DNA from: an uncultured Clostridia bacterium
Lineage (GTDB): Bacteria > Bacillota > Clostridia > Oscillospirales > Acutalibacteraceae
Length of the DNA stretch: 64,000 nt
Direction: 5' to 3'
Assembly (NCBI GenBank): GCA_944380765.1
Contig: CALWIO010000001.1
Location: 1-64,000, forward strand
The translations under genes and the position numbers were made by a program. The notes under the pieces are model-generated. The model saw nothing but the letters and a program-made list of their open reading frames with translations, was not told the DNA's origin and made no database searches. Shown piece by piece: positions 12,231 to 57,268 of the stretch (position 1 is the stretch's first letter; each line of letters starts with the position of its first letter).

Positions 12231-13616
12231 ATGATGAGAAACGACATGGCCGTTATCATGGCCGGAGGCGCGGGAATGTACCTTAAATCGGGTATGCCGC
12301 CCGTTATGGCGGAGATAATGGGCAAGCCCATGGTAGCGAGAGCCGCGGCGGCGGCTGTAAACTCCGGAATAGGAACGGTTGTAGCCGTTGTTCCGGCTAA
12401 GGACACGCATATTTCAGAATACCTTAAATCGGAATTTCCGGGGAAGACGATACACTGCGTTGAGCAGGCTGTTCCGATGGGAACGGCTCACGCTGTTTTA
12501 CAGGCTTACGAGCACATTAAAAACTGCGCCGAAGCCGGCGGAAATGTGCTTATTTTAAACGGCGACACGCCTTTTCTTGACGCGAACACGGTCTGCTCGG
12601 CGTATGCCTGCCACAAGTCGGCGGACAATGATGTTACGGTTATAACCGCCATTGTTTCAAAGCCCTTCGGCTACGGCAGAATAATACGCGACACCGAAAG
12701 GCGTTTCAAAGGAATTGTTGAAGAGCAGGACGCCGACAGCGAGGTTAAAAAAATCAACGAGATTTCAGCCGGCACTTACTGGTTCAAGGCTGAGAAGCTG
12801 CTTGAAATAATCGACCGTATTCCGCCGAGGGCAAACGGTCACTACAATATGGTTGACGCCGTTTCAATGATTATCAGTTCCGGCGGCTCGGCAGGGACAT
12901 TCTTCGCTCCCAAGCCCGACATTATACTCGGCGCAAACAACAGGATACAGCTTATGGAGCTTAACGAGTACGCCAAAAGGCAGGAAATTGAAATGCACCT
13001 TACCGCCGGCGTTGACATACCTTTCCGCGACGGCGTTATTATCGAGCCGAGCGTTGAGATAGGAATAGGCACCTGTATTCTTCCCAACACCATGCTTAAA
13101 GGTAAAACAAAAATCGGCAAGGGCTGCACAATAGGTCCCAATACCGTTGTAACCGACAGCACCATAGGCGACAATGTTAAACTCAACAATGTTCAGTGCA
13201 CTCTTTCGGTGGTCAAGAACAACGCCGACATAGGCCCCTTTGTTCAGATACGCCCGAATTCGGTTATAGGCGACAGCGTTCACCTGGGCAACTTTGTTGA
13301 GGTTAAGAACTCCAACATTGACACGGGCACAAAGGTTTCGCACTTAACTTATGTGGGCGACTCAGATGTGGGCAAGCGCGTTAACTTCGGCTGCGGCACG
13401 GTCACGGTCAACTACAACGGCAAGGCTAAATTCCGCACCACCATAGGCGACGATGTTTTTATAGGCTGCAACACGAATCTTGTGGCGCCCGTAAAGGTCG
13501 GTGACGGAGCTTACACGGCCGCCGGCTCGACTATTACCGAAGATGTTCCCGACTGCGCTCTGGGCATAGCGAGGGCAAGGCAGGTTAACAAAATCGGCTG
13601 GAAACTCAAGAAATAG
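12231..13616 (+). CDS. glmU: GlmU-like bifunctional UDP-GlcNAc synthesis protein with altered N-terminal motif
   Basis: A 461-residue protein with GlmU architecture: an N-terminal nucleotidyltransferase (about 1-225) and a C-terminal left-handed beta-helix acetyltransferase. The C-terminal half keeps the family residues (IRPNSVIGD, GNFVEVK, SHLTYVGD, NFGCGTVTVNYNG). The N-terminal half keeps NGDTP and GYGRII. However, the signature written GxGTRM...PK in GlmU reads GAGMYLKSGMPP here, so the arginine and lysine equivalent to E. coli R18 and K25 are Tyr and Pro. EINTG reads EISAG and GEYY reads GHYN. The acetyltransferase activity is likely intact; the uridylyltransferase is doubtful. A GGAGGGG ribosome site precedes the ATG. 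The order glmU-pth-mfd matches Bacillus with prs and ctc missing. Confidence 0.85.
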   Translation: MMRNDMAVIMAGGAGMYLKSGMPPVMAEIMGKPMVARAAAAAVNSGIGTVVAVVPAKDTHISEYLKSEFPGKTIHCVEQAVPMGTAHAVLQAYEHIKNCAEAGGNVLILNGDTPFLDANTVCSAYACHKSADNDVTVITAIVSKPFGYGRIIRDTERRFKGIVEEQDADSEVKKINEISAGTYWFKAEKLLEIIDRIPPRANGHYNMVDAVSMIISSGGSAGTFFAPKPDIILGANNRIQLMELNEYAKRQEIEMHLTAGVDIPFRDGVIIEPSVEIGIGTCILPNTMLKGKTKIGKGCTIGPNTVVTDSTIGDNVKLNNVQCTLSVVKNNADIGPFVQIRPNSVIGDSVHLGNFVEVKNSNIDTGTKVSHLTYVGDSDVGKRVNFGCGTVTVNYNGKAKFRTTIGDDVFIGCNTNLVAPVKVGDGAYTAAGSTITEDVPDCALGIARARQVNKIGWKLKK

Positions 13617-13632
13617 AGGTAACAAACAAAAT

Positions 13633-14244
13633 ATGTTCAACAGATTCAGAAAACAAAACGCTGTTTCTGCCGGCACACCTGAATTTATTGTCGCGGGGCT
13701 TGGAAATCCCGAGGGAAAGTACACCCTGACGCGGCATAATTCGGGGTTTTTGTGCGTTGATATGCTGGCGCAGAAATACGGCTTTAAAATTGACCGCCTT
13801 AAATTCAAATCGCTTATCTGCGACACAGTTATAAACGGACACCGCTGCATAGTTATGAAGCCGCAGACCTTTATGAACAACAGCGGCGAGGCTGTGCGCG
13901 ACTGCGCGGAGTTTTACAAAATCAAGCCGGAAAACATTATAGTTATTTTTGACGATATTTCCCTTGACATAGGCAAGCTGCGCATACGCCGCAAGGGCAG
14001 CGACGGCGGTCACAACGGCATTAAAAGCATTATTTATCACTTGAACAGCGATAATTTTCCGCGCGTTAAAATAGGCGTGGGCAAAAAGCCTGACCCCGAC
14101 TACGATTTAGCCGCGTGGGTGCTTTCAAAATTTACCGAGCCGGAGCTTAAAACGCTTGAACCGGCTCTTGAAAAAGCCTGTGACGCCGCCGTTCTTTTAA
14201 TGGACGGGGAATGCGACAAAGCCATGAATCTTTATAACGGCTGA
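13633..14244 (+). CDS. pth: Peptidyl-tRNA hydrolase
   Basis: A 203-residue Pth enzyme. The family start FIVAGLGNPEGKYTLTRHN carries the asparagine and the catalytic histidine in TRHNSGF. MKPQTFMNNSGEAV and the SDGGHNGIKSI motif follow, all standard. It recycles peptidyl-tRNAs that drop off the ribosome. About 17 extra residues precede the usual beta-strand. It lies between glmU and mfd, as in Bacillus. Confidence 0.96.
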   Translation: MFNRFRKQNAVSAGTPEFIVAGLGNPEGKYTLTRHNSGFLCVDMLAQKYGFKIDRLKFKSLICDTVINGHRCIVMKPQTFMNNSGEAVRDCAEFYKIKPENIIVIFDDISLDIGKLRIRRKGSDGGHNGIKSIIYHLNSDNFPRVKIGVGKKPDPDYDLAAWVLSKFTEPELKTLEPALEKACDAAVLLMDGECDKAMNLYNG

Positions 14245-14258
14245 CCGGAGGTTTTACT

Positions 14259-17200
14259 ATGTCCGCAATTATAAAGGCCGCCGCTGACTGGGGCGAATTC
14301 CGCGCGGTGCGCGACAGCATAAAAAAAGGCTCTCTGCCGCAGGGTGTTTTAGGACTTATCCCCTCACAGAAAGCCTATATAATATCAGCGCTTACCGAGA
14401 GCCTTGAAAAAAAGGCTCTTATTGTTGTGCCCGATGAGAGCACAGCTTTTAAGCTCTGCGACGACCTTGCCGCTTTCGGGCTCAGGGCGCTTCACTACCC
14501 GTCGAGGAGCTTTTCGTTTTACAGCACCGACGGGCAATCCTACGAATACGAGCAGAAGAGAATACGGGTACTGCGCCGTATGCTTGACGGCAGCTGCGAC
14601 GCCGTTGTTGCCTGCGCCGAAGCCGCGGCCTCCTACACGGTGCCGCCCTCTGTGCTGGCGGAAAAATCCCTGCTGTTAAAAAAAGACGCGGAAATCTCGC
14701 TTGACGCTGTTTTATTCGCTTTAAACGCCGCCGGATACACCCGTGTTGACGCGGTGGAGGGCATAGGTCAGTTTTCCTGCCGGGGCGGAATTGTGGATTT
14801 CTTTTCGCCCGACGATGACGAGCCTGTGCGGATTGAGCTTTGGGGCGACACGATTGACGCTATGTGCCGTTTTGATATTCAGTCGCAGCGGCGCACAATG
14901 AACATTGACGAGATTCTGATAGCACCCTCGCGCGAGATAATCATTGACGATTCGGCCCTTCTCTGCGAAAAAATAGAAAAACTGGCGTCGGGCATAAGGG
15001 GCAAAAACTCCGCCGCCGTTAAAGAAAAGCTTTTTGACGACTGCGAAAGGCTTAAAAGCGGGTTAAAACCCGGCTCAGCCGACAAATATCTGCCGCTTAT
15101 TTACTCCCCTGCCACAGTTTTTGACTACGCGCGGGACTATCTGCTTTTCTCTGCGGAAACGGGCTCCGTAAAAGAGAGGTTTTCGGCATTCACGAAATTG
15201 CAGAACGAGGATATTAAAGCCTGTTTTGCCGACGGCACTCTTTGCAGGGGGCTTGACAAGTTTTCGCTGAGCTTTGCGGAAATTATAAAAAAATACGAGG
15301 AATTTCCCACCACCTATCTTGACAGTTTCGCGAGGGGCAGCTTTGACACGCCCGTTAAGAGTCTGACAGCTTTCAGCGCCTCTACGCTGCCTGTATGGAA
15401 CGGCAAGCTTGATGTTTTGTGCGAGGATATTGCTCCCGTAACTGCCGCGGGCGGCACGGCGGTTGTATTTGCCGGCACCGAAAAAAGCGCAAAAAATCTT
15501 GCCGAGGCTCTGAATGTGGAAGACATAAGCGCTGTGTATTTTCCGGTTATTCCGGCTCAGTTCCCGAAAAAAGCCGTCAGCGTTCTGCCCGGCTCAATAA
15601 GTTCGGGTTTTGCCTTTGAGAGAGAAAAATTCTATGTTTTTACCTACTCAAAAATATACACTTCAAAATCCAGACGCCGCAACTCCGGCTTTAAGGCGAG
15701 GGATACCATTCACTCCCTTGACGAGCTGAAAAAGGGCGACTACATTGTTCACGCTGTTCACGGAATAGGAATTTTTGACGGAGTGACGCAGCTTGAATCG
15801 GGCAAAATCATAAAAGATTATATCAAGATAAAATACGCCAAAGGAGACGCTCTGTATCTTCCCGTTACGCAGCTTGACCTGGTTTCAAAATACATCGGCC
15901 CTCACGAGGACGACTCAAAGCCTTTAAAGCTCAACAGACTCGGTTCAAACGAGTGGGAGAAAACAAGAAGCAAGGTGCGCGCCGCCGTTAAGGATATGGC
16001 GGACGGACTTATTAAGCTGTACTCTCAGCGTATGAATTCAAAGGGCTACGCCTTTTCGCCCGACACGGATATGCAGTCGGACTTTGAGAGCCGTTTTGAG
16101 TTTGAGGAAACGGGCGACCAGCTTCGCTGTATTGACGAAATCAAAAGCGATATGGAAAAGCCGTATCCCATGGACCGTCTGCTCTGCGGAGACGTGGGCT
16201 TCGGCAAAACAGAGGTTGCGCTCCGGGCGGTTTTCAAATGCGTTGCGGACGGCAAGCAATGCGCTATTCTTGTGCCTACCACAATACTCGCGCTCCAGCA
16301 TTACCAGACGATTATAAGGCGTTTTGACTCGTTCCCGATTGAGGCGGAAATGCTTTCACGCTTCCGCACGCCCGCGCAGCAGGCCAAAATCATAAAGGGA
16401 GTAAACAGCGGATTTATTGATATAATAGTCGGCACTCACCGCCTTATTTCAAAAGATATTAAATTTAAGGATTTAGGGCTTTTAATAGTTGACGAGGAAC
16501 AGCGTTTCGGCGTTGCTCAGAAAGAAAAGCTAAAAGAAAAATTCCCGGGAGTTGATGTTCTTACGCTTTCGGCTACGCCCATTCCGAGAACCCTCAATAT
16601 GGCTATGTCGGGAATACGGGATATGTCGGTAATCGAGGAGGCTCCCGCCGACCGTTTTCCCGTTCAGACCTATGTTGTGGAACACAGTCTGCCGCTTTTG
16701 TGCGAGGCTATGGAAAAAGAGCTGCGCCGGGGAGGTCAGGTATATTACCTGCACAACCGCACCGAAACCATTGATGCCGCCGCTGCCGCCATAAAGGAAT
16801 ATCTGCCTGACGCGCGCATAGCGGTGGCTCACGGAAAAATGAACGAGGAACAGTTAAGCGATATCTGGCGCGACCTTATGAACGGGGAAATTGATATTCT
16901 TGTCTGCACCACGATAATCGAAACGGGCGTTGATGTTCCCAACGCCAACACGCTGATTATTGAGGACGCCGACCGGCTCGGGCTCGCTCAGCTTCATCAG
17001 CTCAGAGGGCGTGTGGGCAGAAGCGCGCGCCGGGCAAGCGCCTACCTCACCTACAAGCGTGACAAAAATCTTACCGAGACAGCCTACAAGCGGCTTCAGG
17101 CCATAAGAGAATACACGCAGTTCGGCTCCGGCTTTAAAATAGCCATGCGCGACCTGGAAATAAGAGGAGCGGGAAATCTTCTCGGCGCTCAGCAGCACGG

Positions 17201-17741
17201 TCATTTAGCCGCCGTGGGATACGATATGTATATGAAGCTTCTCTCGGAGGCTGTCGCAGGGGAAAAGGGCGAGCCTGAAAAGAAAACAAGGGAATGTCTT
17301 ATCGACCTGCAAATCAACGCTCACATACCCGAAAAATACATCAGCTCCCTGCCGCAGCGTCTTGCCGTTTACCGCAGAATCGCCGATGTGCGCACCTTTG
17401 AGGACGCGGAAGATGTGCGCGACGAGCTGCGCGACCGCTTCGGCGATATTCCGCCCTCGGTTGACGGGCTTATTGAGGTTTCGCTAAGCCGCAACACCGC
17501 CTCGTCAATGGGAATTTTTGAAATAGGTCAGCGCGGCGACATAATAGCCCTTTACTGCGACGAGATTGACGCTTCGCTTGTGCTTGACATATCCTCTGTT
17601 CTCCGTTCGAGAGTAAGCGTTACCTCCACGGGCAGAAAGAGCATAAATGTCAGAAAGCTTGAAAACCAGACTCCGCTTGACACATTAAAGGAGATTTTCG
17701 CCGCCGTTGAAAGCCTCAGAAATTTCTCCAATCAAAATTAA
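14259..17741 (+). CDS. mfd: Transcription-repair coupling factor Mfd
   Basis: A 1160-residue Mfd, the expected size. Domains in order: a UvrB-like N-terminal region (about 1-330), the RNA-polymerase interaction domain (DYIVHAVHGIGIFDG, about 490-560), and a RecG-like translocase with Walker A GDVGFGKTEVALR near residue 645, DEEQRFG near 745 and QLRGRVGRS. A C-terminal UvrA-binding domain follows. Mfd pushes stalled RNA polymerase off lesions and recruits UvrA. In Bacillus spoVT and spoVB would follow; here the operon ends at a terminator instead. Confidence 0.98.
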   Translation: MSAIIKAAADWGEFRAVRDSIKKGSLPQGVLGLIPSQKAYIISALTESLEKKALIVVPDESTAFKLCDDLAAFGLRALHYPSRSFSFYSTDGQSYEYEQKRIRVLRRMLDGSCDAVVACAEAAASYTVPPSVLAEKSLLLKKDAEISLDAVLFALNAAGYTRVDAVEGIGQFSCRGGIVDFFSPDDDEPVRIELWGDTIDAMCRFDIQSQRRTMNIDEILIAPSREIIIDDSALLCEKIEKLASGIRGKNSAAVKEKLFDDCERLKSGLKPGSADKYLPLIYSPATVFDYARDYLLFSAETGSVKERFSAFTKLQNEDIKACFADGTLCRGLDKFSLSFAEIIKKYEEFPTTYLDSFARGSFDTPVKSLTAFSASTLPVWNGKLDVLCEDIAPVTAAGGTAVVFAGTEKSAKNLAEALNVEDISAVYFPVIPAQFPKKAVSVLPGSISSGFAFEREKFYVFTYSKIYTSKSRRRNSGFKARDTIHSLDELKKGDYIVHAVHGIGIFDGVTQLESGKIIKDYIKIKYAKGDALYLPVTQLDLVSKYIGPHEDDSKPLKLNRLGSNEWEKTRSKVRAAVKDMADGLIKLYSQRMNSKGYAFSPDTDMQSDFESRFEFEETGDQLRCIDEIKSDMEKPYPMDRLLCGDVGFGKTEVALRAVFKCVADGKQCAILVPTTILALQHYQTIIRRFDSFPIEAEMLSRFRTPAQQAKIIKGVNSGFIDIIVGTHRLISKDIKFKDLGLLIVDEEQRFGVAQKEKLKEKFPGVDVLTLSATPIPRTLNMAMSGIRDMSVIEEAPADRFPVQTYVVEHSLPLLCEAMEKELRRGGQVYYLHNRTETIDAAAAAIKEYLPDARIAVAHGKMNEEQLSDIWRDLMNGEIDILVCTTIIETGVDVPNANTLIIEDADRLGLAQLHQLRGRVGRSARRASAYLTYKRDKNLTETAYKRLQAIREYTQFGSGFKIAMRDLEIRGAGNLLGAQQHGHLAAVGYDMYMKLLSEAVAGEKGEPEKKTRECLIDLQINAHIPEKYISSLPQRLAVYRRIADVRTFEDAEDVRDELRDRFGDIPPSVDGLIEVSLSRNTASSMGIFEIGQRGDIIALYCDEIDASLVLDISSVLRSRVSVTSTGRKSINVRKLENQTPLDTLKEIFAAVESLRNFSNQN

Positions 17742-53814: not shown

Positions 53815-54570
53815 ATGAAGCTGATTTCATGGAATGTAAACGGAATAAGGGCGTGCGTAAACAAGGGCTTTAAGGATTTTTTCAAGGAGCTTGACGCCGA
53901 CATCTTCTGTATTCAGGAAACAAAATGTATGCCAGACCAGATTGATTTGAATTTTGAGGGATACCGCTCATACTGGAACAGCGCCGAAAGGCGCGGATAT
54001 TCAGGTACCGCTGTTTTCACAAGGTATGAGCCGCTCGCCGTTTCTTACGGCATAGGTATTCCCGAACATGATACGGAGGGCAGAGTAATAACCCTTGAAT
54101 TTGAAAATTTCTTTTTGGTGACCGTATATACCCCAAACTCAAAAAGGGAGCTGGAAAGGCTCGGCTACCGTCAGATATGGGAAGACGAAATGCGCAAATA
54201 CCTGCTCTCGCTTGATTGCAGAAAGCCTGTAATTATGTGCGGTGATTTGAATGTTGCTCACCGTGAAATTGACCTTAAAAATCCTAAATCCAACCGCGGA
54301 AACGCCGGATTCACAGATGAGGAACGGCAAAAAATGACCGAGCTTCTGGACTCCGGCTTTACCGACAGCTTCCGCTACAAATATCCCGACAAAACCGACG
54401 CTTACAGCTGGTGGTCATATATGGGCAGAGCCAGAGAAAAAAATATAGGTTGGAGAATCGACTATTTTATTGTTTCAGACAGCGTTAAAGAAAAGATAAC
54501 AGACGCGTATATTTATCCCGCGGTAACCGGCAGCGACCACTGTCCCGTGGGAATAGATATTGAAATTTAA
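53815..54570 (+). CDS. xthA: Exodeoxyribonuclease III
   Basis: A 251-residue AP endonuclease/exonuclease III. Motifs are [29 protein letters not shown] (metal-binding Glu), [13 protein letters not shown] and [13 protein letters not shown]. It cuts DNA 5' to abasic sites and trims 3' ends. Start ATG 53815 lies behind GAGG; a longer frame reaching back into purA has no ribosome site. It sits between purA and guaA, an unrelated pathway but probably the same message. Confidence 0.96.
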
Positions 54571-54595
54571 GCGTTTGAATACCAAGGAGGTTTAT

Positions 54596-56125
54596 ATGGA
54601 GAAAATACTGGTTCTTGATTTCGGCGGGCAGTATAATCAACTGATAGCGAGAAGAGTCCGCGACAACCGCGTCTATGCGGAGATACTCCCCTACACGGCT
54701 TCTCTTGACGAGATAAAGTCGCGCGGTTACAAGGGTATTATCTTTACCGGCGGCCCCAACTCGGTATATGACGAAAGCTCGCCTCACTACGCCAAGGAAA
54801 TTCTTGATTTGGGTATTCCTGTACTCGGAATATGCTACGGCTGTCAGCTTATTTCGTGGATGCGCGGAGGCGAGGTCAAAACGGCTCCCGTTTCCGAATA
54901 CGGCAAAATTGATGTTACGGTCAAAAAGTCCAGTCCGCTTTTTAAAGGTATTCCCGAAAAAAGCGTTGTCTGGATGAGCCACACCGACTATATATCAAAA
55001 GTCCCGGAGGGCTTTGAAATTACGGGCACTACCGGCGACTGTCCCTGCGCGGCTATGGAAAACGCCGGTGAGCGCATTTACGCCGTACAGTTTCACCCGG
55101 AAGTCACGCACTCACAGTTCGGAAAGGAAATTCTGCATAATTTCCTTTATGAAATCTGCGGCTGCTGCGGCGACTGGGTAATGGACGATTTTATTGAAAA
55201 AACAGTCAGCTCTCTGCGTAAAAAAATCGGCTCAAAAAAGGTTATTCTCGGCCTTTCGGGAGGTGTTGACTCCTCGGTTGCCGCAGGACTTTTAAGCCGC
55301 GCGGTAGGCAAACAGCTTACCTGCGTTTTTGTTGACCAGGGGCTTATGCGCAAAGACGAGGGCGATTTTGTTGAAAAGACCTTCACAAGCCTTTTTGATA
55401 TGAATTTTGTGCGCGTTAACTGTCAGCAGGAATTTTTAAGCAAGCTCAAAGGTGTTACCGACCCCGAGCAAAAAAGAAGAGTTATAGGCACGGAATTTTA
55501 CAGTGTTTTCTGGAATGAAATAAGAAAAGAAAACGACCGTGGATTTTTCGCGCAGGGCACAATATATCCCGACTGCATTGAGTCCGGCAAAGGTGACGCC
55601 GATGTTATAAAAACGCACCACAACCGAGTTAAAATGCCCGGTGATATTAAGTTTGAGGGTATTATTGAGCCGCTGAGCGAACTTTTTAAGGACGAAGTCC
55701 GCGCCGTAGGCGAAAAGCTCGGTATTCCAAAGGAGCTTGTCTGGCGCCAACCCTTCCCCGGCCCGGGACTCGGCGTGCGTATTATCGGTGAAATCACCGC
55801 CGAAAAGGTAAAAATCCTTCAAGACGCTGACGCTATTTTCCGCGAGGAGATGGTTAAAACCGGCTATGAGAAAAATTTGAGCCAGTTCTTTGCCGTTCTG
55901 CCCGATGTAAAAACGGTAGGCGTTATGGGCGACCACAGAACATACGACCACCTTATCGCGCTCAGAGCCGTTACAACCGACAACTTTATGACCGCCGACT
56001 GGGCGCATATCCCCTATGACCTGCTCGCCAAGGTCTCAAACCGCATTACCAACGAGGTTGAGCATGTCAACCGCGTAGTCTATGACATCACCTCAAAACC
56101 GCCCGGAACGGTGGAATGGGAGTAA
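54596..56125 (+). CDS. guaA: GMP synthase, glutamine-hydrolysing
   Basis: A 509-residue full-length GuaA. The N-terminal glutaminase has [10 protein letters not shown] (catalytic Cys) and QFHPEVTHS (His and Glu). The ATP pyrophosphatase begins with [16 protein letters not shown] near residue 220, and the C-terminal dimerisation domain ends [18 protein letters not shown]. It aminates XMP to GMP with glutamine. AAGGAGG precedes ATG 54596. It is the last gene of the purA operon; a second, shorter GuaA follows 160 bases on. Confidence 0.97.
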
Positions 56126-56287: not shown

Positions 56288-57268
56288 ATGAACAGCAACA
56301 AAAGGCCTGACTCTTTCGCCCGCATTACCACCGCGCAGGCGGCAAACGCCTTTATTGACGAGCAAGTTGCGGAAATCCGCGCAGCAGTTGGAGATAAAAA
56401 GGTACTGCTCGCTCTGTCGGGCGGGGTGGACTCGTCGGTAGTCGCCGCGCTTCTGATTAAAGCTATCGGCAAACAGCTCGTCTGCGTGCATGTAAACCAC
56501 GGACTTATGCGCAAGGGTGAAAGCGAACAGGTAATCGATGTTTTCGGTAAAAATCTTAACGCCAACCTTATCTATGTTGACGCCGCCGACCGTTTTCTTG
56601 ACCTGCTCGCAGGCGTCAGCGACCCTGAGAAAAAGCGCAAGATTATAGGCGGAGAATTTATTAAGGTTTTCGCTGAGGAAGCCTCAAAGCTTGAAGGAAT
56701 ATCATTCCTCGCGCAGGGTACAATTTATCCCGACATTCTGGAATCTGACGGGGTAAAAGCGCACCACAATGTAGGCGGACTGCCTGAGGATATGGATTTT
56801 GAATTGGTAGAACCCATAAAGCTTCTGTTCAAAGACGAAGTGCGCGTAGTCGGAGAAGCGCTCGGTCTGCCGCGCAGCATGGTTTACCGTCAGCCGTTCC
56901 CCGGTCCCGGACTGGGCGTACGCTGCTTGGGAGCGATAACCAGAGACAGGCTTAACGCCCTGCGTGAAGCTGACGCAATACTGCGCGAGGAGTTTGACAA
57001 GAACGGTCTCAGCGCCAAAGTATGGCAGTATTTTATCGCCGTTCCCGATATGAAAAGCACGGGCGTAAAAGACGGCAAGCGTTACGAGGGCTGGCCGGCA
57101 ATTATCCGCGCCGTAAACACCACAGACGCCATGACCGCCACTATTGAGGAAGTCCCCTACCCCCTGCTCCACCTCATAACCGACCGCATAACAAAAGAAG
57201 TCCCCGGTATTAACCGCGTGGTCCTCGACCTCACCCCCAAACCTGTCGGCACAATCGAGTGGGAATAG
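56288..57268 (+). CDS. GMP synthetase lacking glutaminase domain (GuaAb-like)
   Basis: A 326-residue protein covering only the ATP pyrophosphatase ([17 protein letters not shown], residues 38-54) and the dimerisation domain (NRVVLDLTPKPVGTIEWE at the end). The substrate segments [20 protein letters not shown] and AVPDMKSTGVKDG are present. About 35 residues precede the ATP domain; no glutaminase triad exists. It could use free ammonia or borrow ammonia from another glutaminase, as archaeal GuaAb does with GuaAa. It has its own promoter next to the full-length guaA. CGGAGGG precedes the ATG. Confidence 0.9.
   Translation: MNSNKRPDSFARITTAQAANAFIDEQVAEIRAAVGDKKVLLALSGGVDSSVVAALLIKAIGKQLVCVHVNHGLMRKGESEQVIDVFGKNLNANLIYVDAADRFLDLLAGVSDPEKKRKIIGGEFIKVFAEEASKLEGISFLAQGTIYPDILESDGVKAHHNVGGLPEDMDFELVEPIKLLFKDEVRVVGEALGLPRSMVYRQPFPGPGLGVRCLGAITRDRLNALREADAILREEFDKNGLSAKVWQYFIAVPDMKSTGVKDGKRYEGWPAIIRAVNTTDAMTATIEEVPYPLLHLITDRITKEVPGINRVVLDLTPKPVGTIEWE

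Follow-up and report, generated by a model that had tools for sequence, protein, structure and literature searches.

A Clostridia GlmU orthologue with a probable pseudoenzyme in place of its uridylyltransferase half

GlmU makes a building block of the cell wall and has two catalytic halves. Which enzyme provides UDP-GlcNAc in a bacterium whose GlmU carries a damaged uridylyltransferase half? This question is raised by a glmU orthologue in a 64,000-nucleotide stretch of DNA from a Clostridia bacterium, the whole of which is referred to here as the window. Based on sequence comparisons, we consider it very probable that the uridylyltransferase has been lost while the acetyltransferase has been kept, that another enzyme makes UDP-GlcNAc, and that the N-terminal half of the window GlmU is a pseudoenzyme. 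Two publications (PMC9105790, PMC11947611) present GlmU as a drug target and as the bifunctional enzyme from which bacteria obtain UDP-GlcNAc. The features of the locus are given below; conserved residues are numbered according to E. coli GlmU.

12231–13616, + strand: glmU orthologue (461-aa ORF) with a damaged uridylyltransferase domain and an intact-looking acetyltransferase domain
12231–12938, + strand: N-terminal nucleotidyltransferase-fold domain, approximately residues 1–236, without equivalents of R18 and K25 (Pfam NTP_transferase, 67.8 bits; AlphaFold2; alignment)
12264–12302, + strand: altered signature loop, residues 12–24, GGAGMYLKSGMPP (alignment)
12279–12281 and 12300–12302, + strand: codons of Y17 (for R18) and P24 (for K25), from the alignment to E. 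coli GlmU
12765–12854, + strand: altered positions S179 (N169), R200 (N191), H204 (E195), N206 (Y197) and V208 (T199)
12939–13613, + strand: linker and left-handed beta-helix glucosamine-1-phosphate acetyltransferase domain, the checked catalytic residues of which are kept
13633–14244, + strand: pth, the downstream neighbour marking the orthologous locus (TIGR00447, 190.7 bits)
14259–17741, + strand: mfd, the second downstream neighbour (TIGR00580, 1024.9 bits)

The window GlmU scores above two NCBIfam cut-offs (NF010934, 474.2 bits against 450; TIGR01173, 443.6 bits against 366.85), the curated match extends over the full length, and the gene lies in the conserved neighbourhood glmU-pth-mfd, with a GGAGGGG stretch immediately upstream of its start. 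Adjacency to pth was found in 37/37 genus loci, and mfd was seen at 35 of these, L050 and L052 giving no match in the stretch examined. The top-ranked solved structures for the model of the window protein are GlmU structures, e.g., 3spt and 1g97; because the whole-model rmsd is 10–14 Å for most of the two-domain GlmU rows, only the fold assignment is used. The protein resembles bifunctional GlmU (TIGR01173, NF010934) in its whole-length homology, its gene neighbourhood, its acetyltransferase residues and its fold match (3spt, 1g97), but differs from it by the replacement of R18 and K25 and by changes at N169, N191, E195 and Y197, and in the congeners the N-domain can be shrunken or absent.

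A preliminary description of this locus held that the acetyltransferase half is well kept, and this was borne out by eight catalytic or substrate residues (R333, K351, H363, Y366, N377, N386, K392, and R440) which are invariant in 50/50 aligned copies. The two further acetyltransferase positions compared, ten in all, are S405, which is Cys in all 50 copies, and A423, which is Val in one. C388 (13392–13394) and C413 (13467–13469) of the window protein align with both cysteines of the redox pair of Staphylococcus aureus GlmU, a pair described in the accessible part of PMC11947611.

In the N-terminal half, the signature loop reads G-G-A-G-M-Y-L-K-S-G-M-P-P (residues 12–24), and E. coli R18 and K25, which hold the UTP phosphates, align with Y17 and P24, respectively. 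The signature containing both residues is thus lost, as had been claimed. Lys19 of the window protein corresponds to the Lys following Arg-Met in intact relatives. The loop is free of gaps in a MAFFT alignment of the 19 genus copies that have it whole (that of G036 is truncated by the end of its contig), and the same placement is obtained when the protein is aligned by phmmer to solved GlmU structures; hence no Arg or Lys is hidden at a shifted position. Among 80 GlmU loci from GTDB species genomes, which are the best matches of one scan and not a random sample, 79 have R18 and likewise 79 have K25. The exceptions are L204, itself a member of the genus, which is without K25, and L272, a second damaged copy, which is without R18. 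The latter (L272, 5067–6410; JAAYRX010000041.1) lies outside the genus and carries R18G, T82I, D105N, N169D, E195R, Y197Q, and N227D; the checked acetyltransferase residues are kept despite these seven active-site changes in the uridylyltransferase half.

The conserved residues N169, E195, and Y197, which belong to the sugar site, are Ser (S179), His (H204), and Asn (N206) in the window GlmU; the residues at 169, 197, and 199 line the GlcNAc pocket. The reported change of GEYY to GHYN is recovered in the alignment, with E195 on H204 and Y197 on N206. That of EINTG to EISAG is also present (N169 to S179), but it has no diagnostic value, as EISSG is found in S. aureus GlmU (9dqf), with Ser at 169 and Pro at 199 in the phmmer alignment. 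By comparison with seven intact outgroups, the switches N169S, Y197N, and T199V are fixed in 18/18 genus copies examined, from which G026 (Arg at 197) and G036 (Ala at 169) were left out. In view of Ser169 and Pro199 in S. aureus, only Y197N is without a parallel in 78 background loci.

The window GlmU keeps the equivalents of G81, T82, D105, G140, E154, and N227, so the N-domain is not uniformly eroded; D105 and N227, the metal residues, are present as D112 and N236. Thirty-six N-domain sites are at least 95% conserved in the 78 background loci. In the clade lacking R18, 23 of these sites are kept in 10/10 copies (G81, T82, D105, G140, E154, G225, N227, and others), G14, F175, and L184 are partly changed, and L11, G16, R18, M19, K25, G56, N169, N191, E195, and Y197 are lost in all or most copies. 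The domain is still predicted by AlphaFold2 to be folded, with a pLDDT of 81–96 in most ten-residue blocks and of 52 in blocks 11–30; the altered loop (residues 15–25) is one of four stretches with a pLDDT below 50 in this model, which is of the window protein alone.

The distribution of the domain was followed in 98 genomes searched with the window protein, the window's genome included, 39 of which belong to the genus; the loci were inspected. Twenty of the 39 have an N-domain, six retain a relic that has lost the loop together with much of the domain (G006, G012, G019, G020, G025, and G037), eleven encode the acetyltransferase alone in ORFs of 229–261 aa (G001, G002, G007, G013, G017, G018, G027, G030, G031, G032, and G035), and two (G014 and G016, 76 and 81% complete) gave no GlmU match in the protein search. 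As all 37 genus loci adjoin pth, the domain was lost in place. A model of the shrunken relic domain, made from an alignment of five copies, has a mean pLDDT of 52, too low for any interpretation. Among the 20 N-domain copies, K25 is found in none and R18 in eight (G036 being cut at the contig edge), and position 25 is occupied by P, S, R, N, Y, H, or T, the Arg occurring in three copies (G015, G026, and G033).

These counts bear on two other explanations. Although the window's genome is a 31-contig assembly, the loss of K25 is common to 19 other congener genomes (56–78% identity), the frame is open and the acetyltransferase is conserved; a sequencing or assembly artefact, or a pseudogene, is exceedingly improbable and is refuted by these congeners. 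The domain might also still be a uridylyltransferase whose mode of phosphate binding has changed and whose substrate is GlcNAc-1-P or a different sugar phosphate. The eight genus copies that keep R18 could be partly active, three copies have Arg at 25, and D105, N227, G140, E154, and G81-T82 are kept in all ten copies of the R18-less clade; however, both R18 and K25 are near-invariant elsewhere, K25 has been replaced within the genus by seven different residues, and congeners without the domain exist, so that we regard continued activity as unlikely.

With catalytic residues lost or the domain deleted in the genus, another enzyme must make UDP-GlcNAc. MurB, which adjoins rapZ in the window's genome, leads us to expect that this bacterium needs UDP-GlcNAc, and its presence, together with eleven congeners without the domain and six with only a relic, lends good support to the earlier proposal that a different UTP:GlcNAc-1-P enzyme is required. 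The GlmU orthologue of this Clostridia lineage, its uridylyltransferase half being a putative pseudoenzyme, would then only acetylate GlcN-1-P to GlcNAc-1-P, and UTP would be joined to GlcNAc-1-P by the other enzyme, which may have taken over early in the genus.

The history of the losses was traced on a C-domain tree of 50 rows and 220 columns. The 'C-domain only' label (14 rows, three of them outside the genus) requires at least five changes on the starred branches, and full versus lost-or-relic requires eight over the whole tree. In the labelling, the R18-keepers include G026 (Lys at 18) and G036 (Ser at 18, contig edge), and the intact copies include G047; the full-or-lost count is independent of these three assignments. 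An unresolved fork separates G033 and G026 from the remaining 35 rows of the genus, and because the two do not group with these, it is put no higher than likely that the ancestor of the genus underwent a single loss. The median ratio of N-domain to C-domain divergence is 3.25 in the R18-less clade (10 sequences, 44 pairs), 2.34 in the R18-keeping group (9 sequences including G026, 35 pairs), and 1.3 in the intact outgroups (8 sequences, 28 pairs; G047 not among them). In the six pairs formed by G009, G010, G011, and G038, dN/dS is 0.12–0.16 (about 0.13) for the N-domain and 0.01–0.05 for the C-domain, while the corresponding values are 0.05 and 0.03 for G003-G024 and 0.04 and 0.03 for G022-G023. 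The pairs exclude the window's own species and reach a dS of about 1.3, and as no intact outgroup pair falls under the saturation limit, the yardstick for each N-domain value is solely the C-domain value from the same pair. Selection on the N-domain of the R18-less clade is relaxed, not absent.

Catalytically dead nucleotidyltransferase subunits regulate elsewhere, as in the cases of GMPPA and GlgD. The preliminary description had likewise suggested that the N-domain might use another substrate or regulate the C-terminal half. A repurposed domain would have lost catalysis and still bind a uridine nucleotide or nucleotide sugar, thereby regulating the acetyltransferase half. The kept uridine and metal residues and the shared substitutions look less random than plain decay and, with the dN/dS of about 0.13 in four congeners, suggest that some role is retained by the N-domain. 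The 23/36 conserved sites kept in 10/10 copies, the three switches common to the 18 copies examined and the still predicted fold point the same way. On the other hand, conservation may serve folding alone, S. aureus GlmU also has Ser169 and a residue other than Thr at 199, G026 (Arg197) and G036 (Ala169), outside the 18, differ, and only a relic or nothing is left at 17/37 genus loci. Any retained role is, given the repeated loss of the domain in the genus, dispensable; the earlier suggestion retains some probability, and we judge repurposing to be possible but rather doubtful.

For the preferred explanation, loss of the uridylyltransferase with takeover by another enzyme, the replacement was sought in the window's genome by a PF12804 and PF00483 profile search. 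Eight distinct genes were matched: IspD, an IspD/ribitol-type cytidylyltransferase, RmlA, GlgC, GlgD, GalU, the window GlmU, and a fusion protein with a nucleotidyltransferase part, the loop of which is degenerate. NCBIfam was used to check GalU, the second IspD-like gene, and the fusion; the other names come from sequence reading. The search for a second GlmU or stand-alone pyrophosphorylase that had been proposed thus found none among the PF00483/PF12804 matches of this genome, and UAP-type, GlmR, and GalT enzymes were without a match as well. In G009, the four PF00483 matches were read as GlgC, GalU, the dead GlmU, and GlgD, and in each of G020 and G032 the two matches above the reporting cut-off, out of three, are GlgC and GalU. 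The UAP-type family PF01704 was found in 0/39 genus genomes, with 4/98 order genomes matched by the same search, which covered some but not all genomes outside the genus. GalT-type PF02744 has no match in the window's genome and is matched in 21/39 genomes of the genus. GlmR (PF01933) was found in 0/60 family genomes, the window's genome (G000) included, and in 8/98 overall. The PF01933 and WhiA searches matched neither protein in a B. subtilis control genome, although B. subtilis has both GlmR (PF01933) and WhiA, so that this control is uninformative; the absence of GlmR from the window's genome has independent support in the short rapZ-whiA gap, which is 4 bases.

GalU was matched (TIGR01099) in 38/39 genus genomes, the one without a match, G014, being 76% complete; as no other UTP-type sugar nucleotidyltransferase was found in almost all genomes of the genus, it is a weak candidate for the replacement. 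Like the GlmU N-domain it is a UTP-dependent sugar-1-phosphate uridylyltransferase of the same superfamily, but its known substrate is Glc-1-P, and use of GlcNAc-1-P is a guess. The evidence for a GalU takeover is weak, and GalU is named only tentatively as the UDP-GlcNAc enzyme of the window's genome; we see about an even chance that the replacement belongs to an unrecognised family. Such an unrecognised UTP:GlcNAc-1-P uridylyltransferase in the genus might be combined with a dead GlmU half serving as a nucleotide-sugar sensor which tunes the supply of GlcNAc-1-P, a conjecture that we consider improbable; if true, a pseudoenzyme would act as a switch within the same polypeptide as a live essential enzyme.

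Two possible marks of takeover in GalU were rejected. The GalU of the window's genome has 322.2 bits against a TIGR01099 cut-off of 326.8, but GalU is also below the cut-off in G040 and G044, which have an intact GlmU, and above it in the congeners G009 and G017, so that the scores do not separate GlmU-lost from GlmU-intact groups. The YG to YC/YS change is order-wide and occurs also beside intact GlmU; almost every GalU of the order (L110, 691–1566, and others) has Tyr-Cys or Tyr-Ser instead of the Tyr-Gly motif, which G066 and G090 keep. The acetyltransferase-only genome G046 gave neither a GalU nor a GlmR match.

Outside the genus, the other 59 genomes were classified by match span into 19 with whole-length GlmU, 16 with the C-terminal part only (G063 provisionally, as it lies at a contig edge), three with the uridylyltransferase half only, four with a remote stand-alone relative of that half, 15 with no GlmU, and two (G055 and G091) with a partial match. 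Loops were read in nine of the 19 whole-length genomes. R18 and K25 are both present in eight of these, and relatives in the family have an intact loop; in G047, the exception, K25 is replaced by Ala and N227 by Ser.

In other Firmicutes, the reaction missing here is carried out by GlmR/YvcK (PF01933), which according to the accessible parts of two papers makes UDP-GlcNAc from GlcNAc-1-P and UTP (PMC10128056) and has catalytic aspartates that matter in B. subtilis (PMC13046274); it differs in being of another protein family and in having no match in the 60 family genomes, the window's included. GlmR is present in 6/16 C-part-only genomes outside the genus (G060, G061, G065, G084, G085, and G088) and absent in 10/16. 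The six are all the sampled members of families f2, f3, and f7, and GlmU was matched only in its C-part in each (the locus was read, as C-domain-only or relic, in three of the six, the rest being assigned by match span). Because there are three families, at most three independent events are represented. GlmR was found in 0/19 genomes with whole-length GlmU. Two more genomes have it, G072 beside a stand-alone uridylyltransferase relative and G083 without a GlmU match. The gene follows rapZ in 8/8 order genomes having GlmR, and in seven of them whiA was found at its opposite flank. The two PF00483 matches in each of G065 and G088 are GlgC and GlgD by frame length and position, which leaves GlmR as the only known uridylyltransferase seen in these genomes.

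No published report of a GlmU losing its uridylyltransferase half was found in the literature searched, in which subscription journals were largely outside the scope, and within it the break-up of GlmU in a Clostridia lineage, with an open slot for its replacement, seems to be new. One genus presents, at one locus, the stages of this break-up side by side: K25 gone, R18 gone, domain shrunk, and domain absent. It makes testable which enzyme makes UDP-GlcNAc in the genus. If confirmed, the co-occurrence of C-domain-only or relic GlmU with GlmR in three families would be evidence from nature that GlmR is a full, not an accessory, uridyltransferase.

The opposite split was also observed. In three genomes of the same family without a GlmU acetyltransferase match, only the uridylyltransferase half was found, with the loop Arg and Lys present (L117, 3091–3840; L118, 4129–4887; L119, 1122–1964); that of L118 adjoins prs-, pth-, and mfd-like genes. 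In other families, the loop Arg and Lys are present in stand-alone uridylyltransferases that resemble the GlmU N-domain (L112, 4179–4937; L113, 4067–4819; L114, 3914–4657; L116, 3839–4603), which are candidates for separate UDP-GlcNAc pyrophosphorylases; two of these genomes, G079 (L114) and G075 (L116), gave neither a GlmR nor a GlmU acetyltransferase match. Elsewhere in the window's genome, a 789-aa protein with a nucleotidyltransferase-like N-terminal part and a degenerate loop (L111, 6012–8381; G000:C4) scores 66 bits with PF00483 against up to 184 in similar long frames of congeners, and is perhaps a second dying nucleotidyltransferase. Finally, two neighbouring ORFs of the window, at 54560–56125 and 56288–57268, start like the parts of a GMP synthase, the former glutaminase-like and the latter PP-loop ATPase-like.
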